Source: Candidatus Fermentibacterota bacterium (GTDB lineage Bacteria > JAFGKV01). Taken from it: 7,735 bases of DNA. Below, piece by piece: positions 195 through 7,735 of the stretch. Both the position numbers and the translations under genes were made by a program. Each line of letters begins with the position of its first letter. Position 1 is the first letter of the stretch. The notes beneath the pieces were generated by a model. The model saw nothing but the letters and a program-made list of their open reading frames with translations, searched no databases and was not told the DNA's origin. The stretch lies in NCBI GenBank assembly GCA_030620115.1, contig JAUXFG010000170.1, positions 1 through 7,735 of the forward strand. Reading direction: 5' to 3'.

Positions 195-2000
195 CTATCC
201 CGCAGGCGAAATGCGTGCTATTCTCTCCCGAATCTCGTGCTCCCATCTGCCCCTCGGGGCCAGGGTCAACGCCCTCTGGAAGGAGCTCAGCGCTGCGGTC
301 GAATCACCCACCTCGAGTTGCACGATAGCCTGTTTCGAGTGGGCCTTCCACGAGGCGGGAAATCGCTCCACGAGCATCCGCAGCCATGCCAGAGCTTCTT
401 CCATCCCGCCTGTCGAGGTGAGTATGTCGGAGAGTAGTACTGTTCCCGTCATGTAGTAGATCGATAGCTCACTGTAGGGCCAATAGTTGACCATAGAGGG
501 ATCGAGGATCTCCCGGAGCAGCGCCACGGCCAATGAATCGCGGCCCGTGTCGTGCCAGAGCGAGGCCAACAGCACGCGGATCCTCAAACTGCCAGGATCG
601 GGCTCTGATGCCCTCTCGAGAACCACTGCCGCCTCTTCCAACCGCGCTTCTTCGCGCAAGACCATTCCCTTGCTGAGGAGCAATGATGCCTCGAACAGGG
701 AGCTCCTCTGGTGGGACGGCACCTTCTCCTGGTCTCTGCTGGCGGCACCGGCGGTGGTCACGTCATTGGCAAAGGCCCCCAGCCGCGGCAGGAATTCAGC
801 TGCCAGGAGCATGGCCCAGAGAACCCCCACCAGCATGGCCGCCCTCCGCAACCCCGGGCGCCTTCCAATCTCCTGAAGCACACCCGCCCACAAAACGGCT
901 ACTCCCATGGCGGGAACGTAGAGAAAACGCGGCGACGGCGCCAAGTAGCCCTCTATGGTCGGGTTCCGTATCGCCTGGGGAAGAAGCAGCGGCGCCACCA
1001 ATATCACCGCCCATGACGCCCCTACCGCAATAGCACGGCGGTCCTTGAGCACAAACAGTGGCAGCAGTAGAGGAATGAACACCAGGAGCATGAAACCCCA
1101 GAGGGAAGAAGGGAAGGGGATCAACGGCGCAGTGGCCGTATCAATGGGCAGAAACAGGGTGCGAAGGTAGAAGCCCAACGCACGCCCACTTGCCGCCATG
1201 AGCGACACCACGGAATGACCCTCAAAGGGGAGAGGCGTCACCATGAAGGCGACCCTCACCAAGAGATACAATGCAATAGGAAGACCCAATGCGCACCACG
1301 TGATCACGCGGCCTCGACCAGGGCTCCTTTCTACCTGAGCCAGACTCCATAACCCTAACACTCCCACCACCGCTATCGACGACTCTTTCCCTAAGAGCGC
1401 ACAGAAGAGGAGAACCCCAACCCACCACCATCGCCAACCCTTATCCCGCGCGCTCAACCATACGCCTGCCGCCCAAAACCCAAACAGCGCCGCGAAAAGA
1501 TCAGACCGCGCCGTAATCATTCCCACCGCCTGAACTCGCCCAGGGTGAAAGGCAAAGAAGAGCCCTGCCAGCAGTGCATACTGCCCTGGCAACAGCAGCA
1601 ACGCCACACGAAACGCGAGCAGCGTCGTGATAATACTCATCACCACGTTGGTCAGATGAAAGCCAGTGGGCGAGAGACCCCACAACGTATGATCAATGAG
1701 ATACGACAGGTTCGTCAATGGCCGATAGTACCCTACCTTCCCCTCGTATCCGATTCGGGCGAAGTAGTCAGATGTCAGGATATGCCCAAGATTCCGCCAA
1801 CTGGTGATGGTTGGATTATCCACAATGAGGAGGTGGTCGTCCTGCACGAAGTCGTAGAACACTGCGGGGAGGGTGACAGCGAGGCCAACAAGGAGCAACA
1901 CCGCGTAGCTAGCAGCGTTTATACGGTCGGGAGCAGAGGACGAGGCCTGTGTTTCGTCAGGCCTGATCCGTTCCCGGACACTGGCGGACGGAAGCTGCAT
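195..2000 (-). CDS. TMTC-like O-mannosyltransferase family membrane protein with C-terminal TPR repeats
   Basis: The predicted 601-residue protein has about ten hydrophobic segments and then a soluble helical tail. The N-terminal half carries the signature of the TMTC/PMT-type GT-C glycosyltransferases: after the first membrane helix (about residues 32-48) comes an extracytoplasmic loop with FVQDDHLLIVDNP (acid pair D54/D55), then YYRPL (91-95), GFHLTN (about 113-118), HPGRVQAV with RSD (152-167), a KE pair (205-206) and PRFLYVP (about 357-363). Residues about 436-596 form roughly four TPR-like repeats. Family members transfer a sugar from a lipid carrier to protein Ser/Thr on the outer side of the membrane; a bacterial polyprenyl-phosphate sugar donor and the acceptor are inferred. 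The start chosen is ATG at 2000 because AGGAG lies 4-5 bases upstream; a TTG at 2012 would overlap that site. The stop is TAG. It shares a 240-bp block with the truncated gene at 4405-4764. Confidence 0.85.
   Translation of the reverse strand: MQLPSASVRERIRPDETQASSSAPDRINAASYAVLLLVGLAVTLPAVFYDFVQDDHLLIVDNPTITSWRNLGHILTSDYFARIGYEGKVGYYRPLTNLSYLIDHTLWGLSPTGFHLTNVVMSIITTLLAFRVALLLLPGQYALLAGLFFAFHPGRVQAVGMITARSDLFAALFGFWAAGVWLSARDKGWRWWWVGVLLFCALLGKESSIAVVGVLGLWSLAQVERSPGRGRVITWCALGLPIALYLLVRVAFMVTPLPFEGHSVVSLMAASGRALGFYLRTLFLPIDTATAPLIPFPSSLWGFMLLVFIPLLLPLFVLKDRRAIAVGASWAVILVAPLLLPQAIRNPTIEGYLAPSPRFLYVPAMGVAVLWAGVLQEIGRRPGLRRAAMLVGVLWAMLLAAEFLPRLGAFANDVTTAGAASRDQEKVPSHQRSSLFEASLLLSKGMVLREEARLEEAAVVLERASEPDPGSLRIRVLLASLWHDTGRDSLAVALLREILDPSMVNYWPYSELSIYYMTGTVLLSDILTSTGGMEEALAWLRMLVERFPASWKAHSKQAIVQLEVGDSTAALSSFQRALTLAPRGRWEHEIRERIARISPAG
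1621..1860 (-). repeat. 240-bp block shared with 4424-4663 (copy A, in the full-length gene)
   Basis: Hand alignment at a constant offset of 2,803 bases gives 226 of 240 identical positions and no gaps. Twelve differences fall in third codon positions, one is a synonymous Leu first position (1709), and one (1726) changes Tyr to Cys. Identity falls sharply outside both ends. The block encodes residues 47-126 (Phe-Tyr-Asp through Ile-Thr-Thr). Confidence 0.92.
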
Positions 2001-2004
2001 ATTT

Positions 2005-2010
2005 CTCCTC
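2005..2010 (-). promoter_or_regulatory. Ribosome binding site that fixes the start of the full-length TMTC-like gene
   Basis: GAGGAG on the minus strand, four bases before ATG at 2000. The in-frame TTG at 2010-2012 overlaps this site and has no ribosome site of its own. Confidence 0.7.
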
Positions 2011-2286
2011 AATGAAACAACCCGGCCATTCCTGGCTTCTACGCCGTCAGGAACAGATTGCTGGCGAACCGGCCTCCGGAGAGGGCCTTTCCTGCAGGAC
2101 TCTCCTTTTTACGAGGACAAACGGAGAGAGGCTCCCCCGGGAAGGCATTTATCCTCTCACGCGCTGAGTGTTCGATCAGTATAACTTGTCCACCTAACTA
2201 GGCGAGCCGGCAAATGGCAGTGGCGTGCCGGGGTTCATGCCCAAACGAGCACTCAGGATAGTTCATCCCGTTTCCGTCTCATGGCC

Positions 2287-2305
2287 TTCCGAAACGGCTT
2301 CGGAA
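2287..2305 (-). terminator. Hairpin just after the 679-residue gene, possible terminator
   Basis: A perfect 7-bp stem (TTCCGAA / TTCGGAA) with a 5-base loop starts four bases after the TGA at 2310-2312. There is no U-run on the minus strand, so an intrinsic terminator is doubtful; it may protect the transcript end or slow polymerase. Confidence 0.35.
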
Positions 2306-2309
2306 TCGA

Positions 2310-4349
2310 TCACGACGGCGATGGATTTCCCGGGCTAAAGGAACCGGGCAACGAGTGATCCCTTCCAGGCGACTCGACCCCCTGCCCGATAGCGTCGTTC
2401 GTGTAGGTCCAGTAGTGAAATGAATTGATGAGGCCTTCGACCTGGAAGCTGACATCGCCCTCTACATCGAGGGGTACGAGAAGGTTGAAGAAGCCCTCTT
2501 CGAAACGCACGGTATCAGCGAATGCGTAGTGCCCATTCGCCAGGATCGTGACTTCCTCCTGCTCTATGCTCAGCTCGACCGGGGAGTGGTCGAACAACTC
2601 AAGCAGCTTTCCGCTGAACGAGCCTTTGTATCTCGCGACGAGCCACCCTCCGCCTGGTGGAACCTCAAGCCTGAATCTCTCCTGTATGACGCTGGGTCGC
2701 CCACCATCCCAGAAGCCATCCCCCTGCATCAGTGGGCTTCCTACCGGCCTCTCAAGTGAGTCGCGGTACCGGTATCCACAACGGTACTCAGATAGCGGGT
2801 CACCAACGTCGAGTTCATCAAAAGGCGAGATGTAGGGAGGGCTGTCCGCGACGCTGGAAAGATCGAGAAGCTGAAGCTCACGAAGCGTCGCGTACCCGTG
2901 GGAGAACGGCACGGGAGGTTCAACCTGGAAGCCGCTCAACCAGTCCTCGATGGTGAACGGTTCTTGGGAGGTGACGAGGAGGACACTGCATGGGTATGTG
3001 GCCTGGATGTACTCGGAAACTTCGAGATGTCTCAGCCAGTACTTCACATGCCTCCCGAGGGTTGGGTTCGCGCCTACCGAATGCGAATGGAGTTTGAGCT
3101 GGCCATCGGCCCAATACATGATGGAGGGTCCAGCTGCCAGGATATCAAGGTTCGGGCGAGTGTTCTTGATATGGTCGACGATTTCTTTCTCTCGTACCAG
3201 GGTTCCTACTCCATTCCGGATGAAGAGGAGATTTCCGGAGGCCTGGACTCCGATCATGCCCGAGATGAACACTAGACCGATTCCCCAGACGGGGGCATTG
3301 AAGACTCTCAGTTCACGGAGCGAGTAGAGCGCGTAGCCGATGAAGAAGGGAGTAAGGACATGGAGGTGGCGATTGAAGTGTACTCCCGAGAATCTCGAGA
3401 ATGAGGCTCCAACGACCAGGACAGTGAGATATGCTAGCACAATGAATGACTCGCGCCGCCTGAGTTTTCGCATGCCCAGAAGAGCCAAGACGAACACTAT
3501 CGGAGGCAGCGTTCCAACCCAAGCTGAGCCTTCGCTGCCGACCTTGGCTGTGCTTGGAAAGAGCCCCAGCAAAGCTCCCTTCACCTGGTCAGAGGCGGTG
3601 GCGGACGCTATGAACAGCGACTGGATGAGGCTCTGGTAGTGGATAATGTTCTGAGTGACGACACCTTGTGGCATGAATGAGCCAGTGAGGTGCTTGTAGA
3701 TGAGGTGAGGGACGAAAAGGGGAATGAAGCCGGGGACAAAACGCCAGAGGCGGTGATGTCCATTGATGGAGGCATATATGAAGACAAGGAAGAGGTAGCA
3801 TAGCATGCCTTCGGGGCGTAAGAGAGAAGCGAGAACGGAGAAGACGATGAAGCGGGGGAAGGAGTGGAAAGAGGCGAGGGCAGCCCAGAAAAAGGCAAAG
3901 AAGAAGCCAAAGTTGGTGGAGAACATGTTGTCGAAGATACCAGGGAAGATCACGCAGAAAAACGTGGCCGGGAACACAACTTGAGGCAAGAACCGGTTGA
4001 AAAAACTATACAGGGCAACGGTGCTGGCGAGCGCGAAGACAAGGCATTCGAGGTAGGCCCAGAGGATAAAGGATGAAGTGGACTTAAAGCCTAAGTAGTA
4101 GCCAGGGGCGAAGAGGAGTGGGCTGAGAAGGTCGGAGAGTATCGTTGAAGGGGCTTCGCTAGGGAGGAGACGAAGTGGGTGACCGTGAACCCAGGCGCGC
4201 GCCATGGTGAGGGTGTCCATGGTATCAGGATTGAACATCACCCAGGTGCCGCTGCGAGCATCGTATGCCAAGACGAGGAAAATGGCCCATTGGATGACCA
4301 CGACCAGGAGGATTGCCGCTCGCTTCCTTGAATAGTCTGAATGGCCCAT
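2310..4349 (-). CDS. Multi-pass membrane protein, probable GT-C type glycosyltransferase with soluble C-terminal domain
   Basis: The 679-residue protein starts with a membrane helix (about 11-29), followed by an outer loop containing FNPDTMD, an acidic pair at D42 and D45 in the place where GT-C enzymes keep their DxD-like catalytic acids. About nine more hydrophobic segments follow to residue 375. Further GT-C-like marks are LLRPEG (about 176-181) after a helix pair and FNRHLHVLTPF (325-335). Residues about 385-679 are soluble; 550-645 look rich in beta strands and I do not recognise this domain. The likely job is sugar transfer from a polyprenyl-linked donor on the periplasmic face, but substrate and acceptor are unknown. 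ATG at 4349 is supported by GGAGAGG four bases upstream. The gene sits between the truncated and the full TMTC-like genes on the same strand, 55 bases after the former. The coding strand is pyrimidine-rich in the membrane part, as expected for many Phe/Leu codons. Confidence 0.75.
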   Translation of the reverse strand: MGHSDYSRKRAAILLVVVIQWAIFLVLAYDARSGTWVMFNPDTMDTLTMARAWVHGHPLRLLPSEAPSTILSDLLSPLLFAPGYYLGFKSTSSFILWAYLECLVFALASTVALYSFFNRFLPQVVFPATFFCVIFPGIFDNMFSTNFGFFFAFFWAALASFHSFPRFIVFSVLASLLRPEGMLCYLFLVFIYASINGHHRLWRFVPGFIPLFVPHLIYKHLTGSFMPQGVVTQNIIHYQSLIQSLFIASATASDQVKGALLGLFPSTAKVGSEGSAWVGTLPPIVFVLALLGMRKLRRRESFIVLAYLTVLVVGASFSRFSGVHFNRHLHVLTPFFIGYALYSLRELRVFNAPVWGIGLVFISGMIGVQASGNLLFIRNGVGTLVREKEIVDHIKNTRPNLDILAAGPSIMYWADGQLKLHSHSVGANPTLGRHVKYWLRHLEVSEYIQATYPCSVLLVTSQEPFTIEDWLSGFQVEPPVPFSHGYATLRELQLLDLSSVADSPPYISPFDELDVGDPLSEYRCGYRYRDSLERPVGSPLMQGDGFWDGGRPSVIQERFRLEVPPGGGWLVARYKGSFSGKLLELFDHSPVELSIEQEEVTILANGHYAFADTVRFEEGFFNLLVPLDVEGDVSFQVEGLINSFHYWTYTNDAIGQGVESPGRDHSLPGSFSPGNPSPS

Positions 4350-4404
4350 GATACCTCTCCTCTCCCTGGAACGCTCCCGGCTGGAAAACAGCTCTACGTG
4401 CCGA

Positions 4405-4764
4405 TCAATATAATAGTAGTGCCAGCGTCGTGATAATACTCATCACAACATTCGTCAGATGAAAACCCGTGGGCGAGAGACCCCACAACGTATGATCAAT
4501 AAGATACGACAAGTTCGTCAATGGCCGACAGTACCCAACCTTCCCCTCGTATCCTATCCGAGCGAAGTAGTCAGATGTCAGGATATGCCCAAGATTCCGC
4601 CAACTGGTGATGGTGGGATTATCCACAATGAGGAGGTGGTCGTCCTGCACGAAGTCGTAGAATATCGAAGGCACGGTCACTATGGCGGCAGCCACTCCTA
4701 CAGCCACGAACCTCCACAGGTGCGTCTTCTGTGATGTCGAGCATGGATCCGCTGAATTGGCCAT
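4405..4764 (-). pseudogene. Truncated N-terminal fragment of a TMTC-like membrane glycosyltransferase
   Basis: This frame encodes 119 residues: a hydrophilic leader, one membrane helix, and a stretch that matches the full-length protein at 195-2000 over 80 residues with one change (YYRP becomes YCRP). It includes the FVQDDHLLIVDNP acid-pair loop and the GFHLTN motif. Homology stops at 4424 and a TGA follows after five more codons (ALLLY), so about 470 residues, including all later membrane helices and the TPR tail, are missing. It therefore cannot be a working transferase of this fold. The start chosen is ATG at 4764, which has GGAG six bases upstream; the open frame reaches back to 4947, but the earlier ATGs lack a good ribosome site. 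Upstream of the shared block the two proteins are only loosely alike, so this is not a simple recent copy. It could still be translated as a short one-helix membrane peptide. Confidence 0.75.
4424..4663 (-). repeat. 240-bp block shared with 1621-1860 (copy B, in the truncated gene)
   Basis: Same orientation and reading frame as copy A. Its downstream edge (4424) lies just before the premature TGA at 4405-4407; its upstream edge (4663) lies at the start of the Phe-Tyr-Asp motif. The two copies enclose the 679-residue gene. Confidence 0.92.
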
Positions 4765-5114
4765 ATCGGTCTCCACAGAGAGAAGAATAGCCCGCATGCC
4801 GCCATGCCGCGAGAATTGCTGCCCAATAAGATAGTATCTCGACCACTCGTATGCAGCCTTCCTCAAATCGATCGCCACGACAATCGACTCACTGGACGAA
4901 GGCGCTACGCGCCGTCGGCCTACGGCCGTAAAGGTGGACACAGCCATGTTGGCACGAGAGACCTGAGTCTCTCATGTGCAGTTCCGTAGATGGACAACTC
5001 CAATCGCTCATCACACTTCGCCCGCAGCTTCTTCTGCGGTCCAAATGCCGCTCGTAAGCCAGAAAACCCCTTTGGTTTTCCGATACTGTTACGGCCGGGT
5101 CAGCTTACTAGCCC
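4765..5114. other. Gap between the truncated gene and the insertion sequence, with two small hairpins
   Basis: The open frame of the truncated gene runs back to 4947 without a good start. Two perfect small stem-loops follow: CCGCAG/CTGCGG (5022-5039, 6-bp stem, 6-base loop) and GAAAACC/GGTTTTC (5062-5080, 7-bp stem, 5-base loop). Neither is followed by a clear T-run on either strand. The promoter of the truncated gene should lie here but no convincing -35/-10 pair was found. Confidence 0.5.
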
Positions 5115-5119
5115 AAGTT
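5115..5119. repeat. Candidate target-site duplication, left copy (AAGTT)
   Basis: AAGTT directly abuts the left inverted repeat and is repeated in the same orientation directly outside the right one. Five identical bases placed exactly at both borders are unlikely by chance, though AA and TT also extend the inverted repeat by two bases. Confidence 0.75.
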
Positions 5120-5136
5120 CAGGGCTCCTGACATGG
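5120..5136 (+). repeat. Left terminal inverted repeat of the insertion sequence
   Basis: CAGGGCTCCTGACATGG, exactly complementary to 7415-7431. It is the end nearest the 3' end of the transposase gene. Identity stops at the next inner base. Confidence 0.88.
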
Positions 5137-5155
5137 TCGGAGAATTAAGTTCTAC

Positions 5156-7336
5156 TCAGGAGGTCTGAAAGAGCAGGCGAAGGCTCGTCCCCGGATAGCG
5201 GCACTTCTTTTCATTCATGACCTCACAGAGTGCTGTCAGAGTCTCGTTGTGATGGCGAGTAGCCATGCTGTGAAGACGCACCACCAAGCAATTACTTTCC
5301 TCGTCAGGGACGAGATCCGCCGGGAGCTGGAACACAGCCTTCAGAAACGTTCGTCCCTCCTCCTCGTGTCGATTGAAGAAAGGCATGATGCAGTTTAAAA
5401 GGCTGGTTTCGGCCCGGTACGCTACCATCTTGATGACGTCGGTGAGCATCTTGCGTTCAGGTTCCAGCTTCACGATTTCTTCCTCACCGAGAAGTTCTCT
5501 CAAAGCTACTCTCTCAGGGAGGGCTTTCATGGCAGCATGTACCTCCTGACATCGCTTCTCAAGCTCCCTGATCTTCTTCCCCAGTTCGGAGTTTGCTATC
5601 TTGAACCCACGCATGGTGCGTCTCTGGCTTTCGGGGTTCTCACGCGCCTCCCCCCCGTACTCTGCTTCCAGTTTCTCAAGCTGATTCTTGAGCCTTCTGA
5701 GTTCTTTTTCTTTCTTTTTCCTCTCAGGGTTAGGCACCTGCCGCTCCGGGTCGGCCGGTTCCACGTCATACGTGCACAAATGATCTAAATCGTACTCGTG
5801 CCGCATGTACCGGAAGTAATTCTCCTGACTCCATCGCGAAAACATGCGAACTGCGATTTCTTCCATCTCAAGATCCTGCCGAGTGCTCATCACAGACGTC
5901 TGATGCCCGCTATCGCACAGCCGTCTCACTTCTCGCATCCAGAACCCTTTCTTCATCATTACGCTTCGCTGCCCAAGCTTATACTTCACCACCTTGCCGT
6001 ATACCTCCACCTCCACCTCAAAGAAGCATTCCTTTGGCCACTTCTCGTATTTTCCCTTCCTATAGGTCAAGACGTCGAACTTCTGTTTCCTCCACTTCTC
6101 GAATTTCTTCGGGCTCCATCCCTCTCGATCGAAGATCACCGTCACACGTCTTTCTTTTCCCACCAGCTTCCTCACCTCAGGAAGGATCTGCTTCTCCAGC
6201 ATGGAAAGCAGGCTGTCGTTCGCCTCTGCCGTCACGAAAAAGAGCGGCTCTGTATTCGCGTCATTCACCCACACATCCGTCGTCGCCGGCATGCAGAGGC
6301 GTCTCCTCGCAACATGCGTCTTCGGCAGCTTGTGCGTGCGGCCGTTGTATGGACGTACATGACCGTCAACGTACAGAAATCCCAGAGCCTCCGGCTTCGC
6401 TCTGCTCCATCTCTGCGTAAGCGCGGCCATGAACTTCCTCGCCAAGCCTCGACTCCCCATCTCCTTCAGTTTCCTCCTCAATGTCTTCATCTCAGGCACT
6501 CGGTCCAGGCCCAGTATGATCCCCAGCTCTCCCGGTGCATGCTTCTTCAACTGCTCGGGTGTCTTGATCCTGCGTAACGCCATAAAAGACAATGTCAACA
6601 ACACTGCACGCAGTCCGAAGAAGCCCGAACTAAGGGATCCGTACACCTTCTTTCCCTCTTCCAGCAGCCCTTGTGACAGAAGCGCGGGAAGAGCCAACAG
6701 CACGCCTGCGCCGGACACCGCCTCCGCAGGTACAAACTCTGGTGGCGCCTCATGTACTATGCCTATCCTCGCCAAAGCGCGATCCCCGTGCCGCTTCACT
6801 CCCATTCCCCCAGTGCATTCCTTATCCTCTCTGGAACGTGTTGAAGGACCCTTCAACACGTCCTCATTGGACGACCCTTTCCCTCCGTGCCGCAGCTGTC
6901 CCCTCTCTATCGCACGACGAATCGCCCCTTCCGTCACTCCTATCTCCTTCGCCGTAGCACGGATGGACACACCTGCAGCCAACCGCTTCTGAGCCTTGTG
7001 TACCCTCTCGCCTATCAGCTTATGGGGACCTCGTTGGCCACTACCCCAGCGCCGTAACCCTTCTATTCCCTTCTCTCGATACCTTCGACGATTCTTGAAT
7101 ATCGTGCTCCTGTGTACACCCAATCCTTCCGCCAACTCTTTCGGCTTCGCTAACTTCATCTCGCTGAACATCGCCGCTGCAAGCTGCCTGCCCTGATTGT
7201 CATCCTCACGGAATGCGTGGATAGGACCAGAGCTATTGTAAATCACGACTTGATTGTCTGCCCGGTGGACCGCCAATTCTTTTCCTACGCATATTGCACC
7301 CTCTGGGAGAAGAGGGAAGCATGGTTGAAGAGACAT
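5156..7336 (-). CDS. DDE (RNase H-fold) transposase, about 700-residue two-HTH family
   Basis: The 726-residue protein should cut and join the element ends at 5120 and 7431. Residues about 65-90 form a first helix-turn-helix (AEGLGVHRSTIFKNRRRYRE) and about 120-147 a second one (ATAKEIGVTEGAIRRAIE), both likely to bind the ends. The catalytic core shows D324 in FLYVDGHVRPY, D403 in VIFDREGW and E505 in RWSQENYF; the spacing R501-x3-E505-x6-R512 fits the YREK-type signature of the IS4 clan with Lys replaced by Arg and no Tyr at the usual place. A charged coiled coil (about 538-605) comes next, then a C-terminal domain ending in PGTSLRLLF. I recognise this architecture from unnamed 'putative transposases' common in planctomycetes, but cannot assign a formal IS family. 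The start is ATG at 7336, with AAAGGAGG six bases upstream; a TTG at 7342 lies between the two. The frame is uninterrupted and all three acids are present, so the enzyme may be active. Confidence 0.88.
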   Translation of the reverse strand: MSLQPCFPLLPEGAICVGKELAVHRADNQVVIYNSSGPIHAFREDDNQGRQLAAAMFSEMKLAKPKELAEGLGVHRSTIFKNRRRYREKGIEGLRRWGSGQRGPHKLIGERVHKAQKRLAAGVSIRATAKEIGVTEGAIRRAIERGQLRHGGKGSSNEDVLKGPSTRSREDKECTGGMGVKRHGDRALARIGIVHEAPPEFVPAEAVSGAGVLLALPALLSQGLLEEGKKVYGSLSSGFFGLRAVLLTLSFMALRRIKTPEQLKKHAPGELGIILGLDRVPEMKTLRRKLKEMGSRGLARKFMAALTQRWSRAKPEALGFLYVDGHVRPYNGRTHKLPKTHVARRRLCMPATTDVWVNDANTEPLFFVTAEANDSLLSMLEKQILPEVRKLVGKERRVTVIFDREGWSPKKFEKWRKQKFDVLTYRKGKYEKWPKECFFEVEVEVYGKVVKYKLGQRSVMMKKGFWMREVRRLCDSGHQTSVMSTRQDLEMEEIAVRMFSRWSQENYFRYMRHEYDLDHLCTYDVEPADPERQVPNPERKKKEKELRRLKNQLEKLEAEYGGEARENPESQRRTMRGFKIANSELGKKIRELEKRCQEVHAAMKALPERVALRELLGEEEIVKLEPERKMLTDVIKMVAYRAETSLLNCIMPFFNRHEEEGRTFLKAVFQLPADLVPDEESNCLVVRLHSMATRHHNETLTALCEVMNEKKCRYPGTSLRLLFQTS

Positions 7337-7342
7337 CCGCAA

Positions 7343-7350
7343 CCTCCTTT
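7343..7350 (-). promoter_or_regulatory. Ribosome binding site that fixes the transposase start
   Basis: AAAGGAGG on the minus strand, six bases before ATG at 7336. It rules against the upstream TTG at 7342, which would directly touch it. It is near consensus, which is strong for a transposase. Confidence 0.75.
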
Positions 7351-7362
7351 CAGGTTCTCTTT

Positions 7363-7391
7363 ATAATACGCGCTCCCCACAAAATAAGCAA
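7363..7391 (-). promoter_or_regulatory. Predicted promoter of the transposase gene
   Basis: On the minus strand a -10-like TATTAT (7363-7368, five of six bases of the consensus) follows a weak -35-like TTGCTT (7386-7391) after exactly 17 bases. It lies inside the element, between the right inverted repeat and the start codon, leaving a leader of roughly 20 bases. Prediction by motif only. Confidence 0.5.
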
Positions 7392-7414
7392 GCAAAATCA
7401 ACGGCTTACGCTCT

Positions 7415-7431
7415 CCATGTCAGGAGCCCTG
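7415..7431 (-). repeat. Right terminal inverted repeat of the insertion sequence
   Basis: Reads CAGGGCTCCTGACATGG on the minus strand, a perfect partner of 5120-5136. It is the end nearest the transposase promoter. Confidence 0.88.
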
Positions 7432-7436
7432 AAGTT
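7432..7436. repeat. Candidate target-site duplication, right copy (AAGTT)
   Basis: Second AAGTT, directly outside the right inverted repeat. Removing 5120-7436 would rejoin the presumed original site with a single AAGTT. Confidence 0.75.
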
Positions 7437-7735
7437 TACCTCTGTCTTGCCAACTGAGGCCGGAATTCGCGGATTTCTGGCGCGGAAACCCTTGATAAAC
7501 CTACTTCCATACCTCTGAGATTGAAATGTAGTGGCCATAGATCCTACATTCCGCACTTCGCGAGGGGCGCTTTCTTGAATATTCATGGCCAGGAATGCCA
7601 TATCGGATAAGGAATTTGCTACTCGCAGCGAAGAGCTCTTTGGTCCCTTAGGGTTCGCGCAGAAATAACTTTACATTCTTGCTTGAACTGATACCGCCTC
7701 GGAATGAGCCATGATCATTTTCCAAAACTGCGTTA
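7437..7735. other. Sequence beyond the insertion site, possible small ORF remnant
   Basis: On the minus strand an ATG at 7601 opens a frame that runs into the insertion sequence and ends inside it at 7398 (67 residues, the last ones encoded by the inverted repeat). With the element removed, the frame would end after 58 residues with Asn-Leu-Gly and TAG. I do not recognise the peptide, there is no convincing ribosome site, and it may be non-coding. Nothing else supportable is seen up to the window edge. Confidence 0.35.

Follow-up and report, generated by a model that had tools for sequence, protein, structure and literature searches.

Probable recombination at the EL1 segment of two TMTC-like glycosyltransferase paralogues, followed by truncation of one of them

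Two paralogous TMTC-like genes in the window (the whole 7,735-nt stretch of DNA that was analysed) share an in-frame block of 80 codons whose two copies differ almost only at silent sites. Their sequences suggest that the paralogues recombined at the segment encoding the luminal loop EL1, that both remained functional for a long time, and that one of them, gene 2, was then truncated; we put the probability of this course of events at roughly two in three. Recombination followed by truncation is ordinary in kind, and the outline is well supported. The features of the window are as follows.

195–2000, minus strand: gene 1, a predicted full-length TMTC-like GT-C membrane glycosyltransferase with C-terminal TPRs (601-aa ORF; RBS-like GAGGAG before the ATG at 2000)
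1620–1859, minus strand: copy 1 of the shared block, in gene 1, covering the luminal loop EL1 (FYDFVQDD ... YYRPL) and ending where TM2 begins
2310–4349, minus strand: ORF of a 679-aa multi-spanning membrane protein, between both copies and in the same orientation
4350–4422, minus strand: end of gene 2 (its final five codons plus the stop codon) and a short RBS-bearing spacer before the 679-aa gene; single-copy in the assembly
4405–4764, minus strand: gene 2, a TMTC-like gene truncated to a stub of 119 aa, with an RBS-like GGAG close upstream of its ATG
4423–4662, minus strand: copy 2 of the shared block, in gene 2, differing from copy 1 at 12 silent sites and by a Tyr-to-Cys replacement (YCRPL for YYRPL)
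4663–4764, minus strand: N-terminal part of gene 2 including the first helix; diverged, with no more similarity to gene 1 than is seen in other members of the family
5120–7431, minus strand: IS element with a Transposase_29 gene (5156–7342), 17-bp inverted ends (CAGGGCTCCTGACATGG) and a 5-bp target duplication AAGTT (5115–5119, 7432–7436)
7646–7735, plus strand: end of a third, dispersed repeat (TCCCTTAGGGTTCGCGCAGAAATAACTTTACATTCTTG...), whose first 37 bp have ~30 occurrences genome-wide and which is cut off by the contig end

The shared block encodes EL1 with its DD and YRP motifs and lies within a repeat without gaps (D1, 1620–1877 and 4423–4680, offset 2803). A search of the whole 4.1-Mb assembly located the block at two places only. 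The copies differ at 13 positions, of which 12 are silent (11 third positions and one CTG/TTG) and one replaces Tyr with Cys (TAT/TGT). The first-pass annotation had drawn the two ungapped stretches at 1621–1860 and 4424–4663, and the 14 differences that it reported, 13 of them synonymous, are indeed counted there. In frame, the totals become 13 and 12, and the 12 third-position changes that it listed become 11, with the CTG/TTG and Tyr to Cys changes as described; the fourteenth difference, at 1860, falls on the third position of a codon (GTG, Val, versus ATA, Ile) in the diverged flank just outside the block. At a neutral silent fraction of 0.265, 12 silent changes out of 13 gave p ~1e-6 (our own arithmetic), and 13 out of 14 gave p ~3e-7 for unconstrained sequence. 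The differences were unevenly spread within the block, which is suggestive at most (Fisher p 0.047), and the longest identical run was not unusual. The source is a fragmented assembly, but a misjoin is unlikely, as each copy retains its own scattered differences and positions 2001–4440 have no second copy in the assembly.

Silent divergence (pS) was ~0.21–0.22 in the block (dS ~0.25, dN ~0.005) versus ~0.6 just upstream. The change was abrupt: pS was 0.57–0.68 in the 10–30 codons upstream and 0.08 in the first 20 block codons, a drop from 0.57 to 0.08 across one codon boundary of the kind that marks a gene conversion tract. Identity across this 5' edge went from 15/15 bases inside to 8/15 outside. 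A recombination breakpoint test, max-chi2 on third positions, located the change precisely at the codon that opens the block (offset 0), with a permutation p of ~5e-5 that is the floor of 20,000 shuffles and with an outside signal drawn from only ~30, weakly aligned upstream codons. As far as sequence comparison can tell, the 5' edge of the block is a recombination edge.

Gene 1 is predicted to be a TMTC-like glycosyltransferase based on a GT-C structural match together with DD, YRP and KE motifs. Family matches consisted of TPRs at the C-terminus and a weak PMT_2. The AlphaFold model (pLDDT 86.7, pTM 0.89) aligned with Pmt4, OST/AglB and ArnT over ~330 residues (Z ~19–20, rmsd 4–5 Å), so that a modelled GT-C fold is combined with a C-terminus of TPRs. 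Using the consensus of 45 relatives as a reference, we found QDD and YYRPL, both in EL1, and GKES as the KE motif; the EL1 DD, YRP and KE motifs of gene 1 have counterparts in motifs M1, M2 and M4 of the human TMTCs (PMC7801869). The likeness to TMTC1–4 and to O-mannosyltransferases of the GT-C-PMT clan extends to the GT-C membrane domain, the EL1 DD and YRP motifs, the KE and R..Y motifs and the C-terminal TPRs (PMC7801869). Unlike TMTC1–4, the family described here is bacterial and has GYYRPL, not SHKSYRP, as its first-loop motif, and gene 1 carries PRFLY where TMTCs have ERxxY. At ~residues 152–159 and 357–362, gene 1 reads HPGRVQAV and SPRFLY versus HPxHTEAV and AERFLY in the family consensus, departures that possibly reflect a change of specificity. 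Relatives of gene 1, matching it at ~27–49% identity in the aligned segment, were found in 68 of 386 genomes; where their frames were uncut, they were mostly 500–800 aa long. The other paralogues in its own genome were only 30–33% identical.

In the TMTC-like family, EL1 counts among the conserved segments, and the first-pass annotation had itself named strong local conservation as the null explanation, to be accepted if other paralogues had the same profile. We compared 121 TMTC-like genes from 42 genomes, which are not a random sample, as 212 within-genome pairs and 300 cross-genome control pairs. The median pS of the EL1-equivalent segment was 0.73 within genomes and 0.78 between genomes, and the gene 1/gene 2 pair, with an EL1 pS of 0.22, ranked second among the 212; the profile was absent from most other pairs. 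Since EL1 silent sites are not conserved across the family, and nearly all other paralogue pairs approach saturation there, the identity of the block requires that its two copies share a recent origin. Conservation of the local protein or DNA by itself, which would also have to stop at the 5' edge where base identity falls, is extremely improbable.

Gene 2 consists of a diverged TM1, the shared EL1 block, the start of TM2, five residues (ALLLY) and a stop. It lacks a complete GT-C domain, all motifs after EL1 being absent. Its N-terminal stretch differs from gene 1 at 21 of 30 third positions, and over the 20 residues before the block gene 2 falls outside the eight family members closest to gene 1. 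The frame runs no more than 18 bases beyond the block, and no downstream sequence aligns with gene 1. The earlier description of the blocks as lying inside otherwise diverged genes is misleading, since gene 2 is a stub. Nor was there support for conversion being confined to the block: its 3' edge is the truncation of gene 2, and the tract common to both genes may originally have extended further. Silent divergence climbs from 0.09 to 0.39 along the block, so more than one recombination event may have contributed to it.

The proposal that selection had acted at the protein level after the copies separated was supported for most of the time since the split (block pS 0.21, pN 0.005). The block shows a single replacement over 183 sites (upper 95% Poisson bound 4.7) versus a dS of 0.25, a near absence of replacements which indicates that selection acted on both copies during most of that time. 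If the stub has been neutral since its truncation, our own arithmetic from these values limits the neutral phase to roughly the last fifth. The sole replacement changes the YRP tyrosine; in models of human TMTCs, the tyrosine of motif M2 (SHKSYRP) is part of the lining of the mannose-donor pocket (PMC7801869). Among 42 aligned sequences, this column held Tyr (27), Trp (8), Phe (3), Leu (2) and Val (1), with Cys in gene 2 only (Tyr/Trp/Phe in 38/42). A change at a near-invariant donor-pocket residue suggests decay, and gene 2 is probably a chimeric, dying gene fragment. We consider it very unlikely that the stub is instead a functional short membrane protein under selection, such as a regulatory or dominant-negative EL1 piece. 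It does have an open frame, a good RBS and 12 silent changes out of 13, but relatives with uncut frames are far longer, the single replacement removes the donor-pocket aromatic, and no downstream catalytic motif is present. Three other short TMTC-like frames (G311:C78, G118:C67 and G173:C100) were considered as further stubs and rejected, as these genes are cut by contig ends.

Under recombination followed by truncation, gene 1 and gene 2 are members of one TMTC-like GT-C/TPR glycosyltransferase family. The recombination would have been RecA-type conversion between the paralogues or an exchange with an incoming near-copy. The EL1 coding segment would have passed to gene 2 (or gene 1) from the other gene, with the upstream edge at the FYDF codons, and both copies would then have encoded working enzymes, gaining almost only silent changes (dS ~0.25, dN ~0.005). 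A later loss of the 3' part of gene 2 would have left the 119-aa stub (TM1, EL1 and the start of TM2), which is now probably decaying. Gene conversion and fragment capture had both been suggested by the first-pass annotation; recombination was supported, and the data fit the two alike, including capture from a related strain or species.

A partial duplication with a swap of the 5' end is a possible but unlikely alternative without conversion. Part of gene 1, or of a near-copy of full length, would have been duplicated and joined illegitimately to the start of another TMTC-like gene, with truncation coming later. This would agree with the single informative breakpoint at the 5' edge, the 3' edge being mere truncation, and nested IS elements nearby show that the locus has been rearranged. 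However, the join preserves the frame and the exact TM1/EL1 register, which comes free with homologous recombination, and the silent-only divergence still demands a long functional phase of both copies. Moreover, a tandem array in another genome (G050, see below) has two-sided islands within full-length genes, as conversion makes.

We regard import from a related species as distinctly improbable. The block of copy 2 would in that case derive from a sister-species orthologue of gene 1 (~94% identical), the silent changes would be interspecies differences, and the stub would have been a fragment from the start. A dS of 0.25 with dN near zero does resemble divergence between orthologues of different species, and a long functional life of gene 2 would no longer be required. 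No close relative of the block or of either gene was found in the genome and viral contig collections, though, and no orthologue of gene 1 in two genomes of the same family; DNA relatives in 60 searched genomes were limited to the contig itself. The imported fragment would also have had to join exactly in register.

Silent-cassette antigenic variation is typified by pilE/pilS and vlsE. The locus resembles these systems in having a partial copy near a full-length gene and differs from them in having one partial copy only. With a single residue separating the proteins encoded by the two copies, the stub offers no protein diversity, unlike silent cassettes; beyond that residue, no protein-changing differences between the copies were found (12 of 13 silent). 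A diversity-generating element was likewise rejected, as the changes are silent and neither adenine-directed nor tied to one base. Recombination between the paralogues at EL1 has a parallel in domain 3 of RF1/RF2, where gene conversion restricted to a conserved domain of anciently diverged bacterial paralogues has already been described (PMC4530459). In both cases, old paralogues have an unexpectedly similar tract in a conserved functional segment, with edges seen as a drop in similarity. Unlike RF1/RF2, gene 2 is cut right after the tract, which leaves the upstream edge alone as informative, and there are no relatives to give the direction.

Clear low-divergence islands were present in two of the 42 genomes, which makes the phenomenon uncommon. 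One clear independent recurrence is a set of three tandem, full-length TMTC-like genes with mosaic N-terminal identity (G050:C7; L051, 2009–8062). Over a large part of their N-terminal half, pS was 0.00–0.2 and amino acid identity mostly 0.8–0.97, and the islands were flanked on both sides by pS of ~0.4–0.7. Two-sided conversion is the natural reading where the genes are full-length, and judged by these profiles the array appears to be an independent and clearer case of it than the gene 1/gene 2 locus. A third close pair, in G118 (L091/L030), was rejected as a clean island, as it is close along the whole shared length. If recombination is the right reading, the locus and the G050 array would be two examples of recombination in the donor-binding half of poorly studied bacterial glycosyltransferases, and trees built from that half of TMTC-like genes can mislead. 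It is a doubtful further step to propose that bacterial TMTC-like families repeatedly homogenise the donor-binding region from EL1 to ~TM4 by conversion while the rest, TPRs included, diverges, with the stub as a by-product or donor. Were this true, the enzyme would keep one donor site and change its targets.

The 679-aa membrane protein between the two copies had no significant Pfam or NCBIfam match; its gene starts (4349) 55 bases downstream of the gene 2 stop. The IS element lies upstream of gene 2 and is inserted into a second, dispersed repeat (5110–7541 of the window), uninterrupted copies of which are found on contigs C133 and C147 of the same genome. Longer copies of the repeat at 7646–7735 were observed in C185, C259 and C130, in two cases close to a contig end, and this repeat is possibly the end of a mobile element. 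Such richness in mobile elements makes rearrangement plausible and does not imply that the IS caused the truncation of gene 2. On contig C150 of the same genome (L048), which carries another TMTC-like paralogue, we observed a MITE-like 164-bp repeat (1713–1876 and 9140–9303, 90% identical) with an inner 33-bp palindrome. In a different genome (G319:C193, L057), an 84-bp repeat (2897–2980 and 4989–5072, 95% identical) precedes both members of a tandem pair of TMTC-like genes and is perhaps a shared promoter or a recombination remnant.
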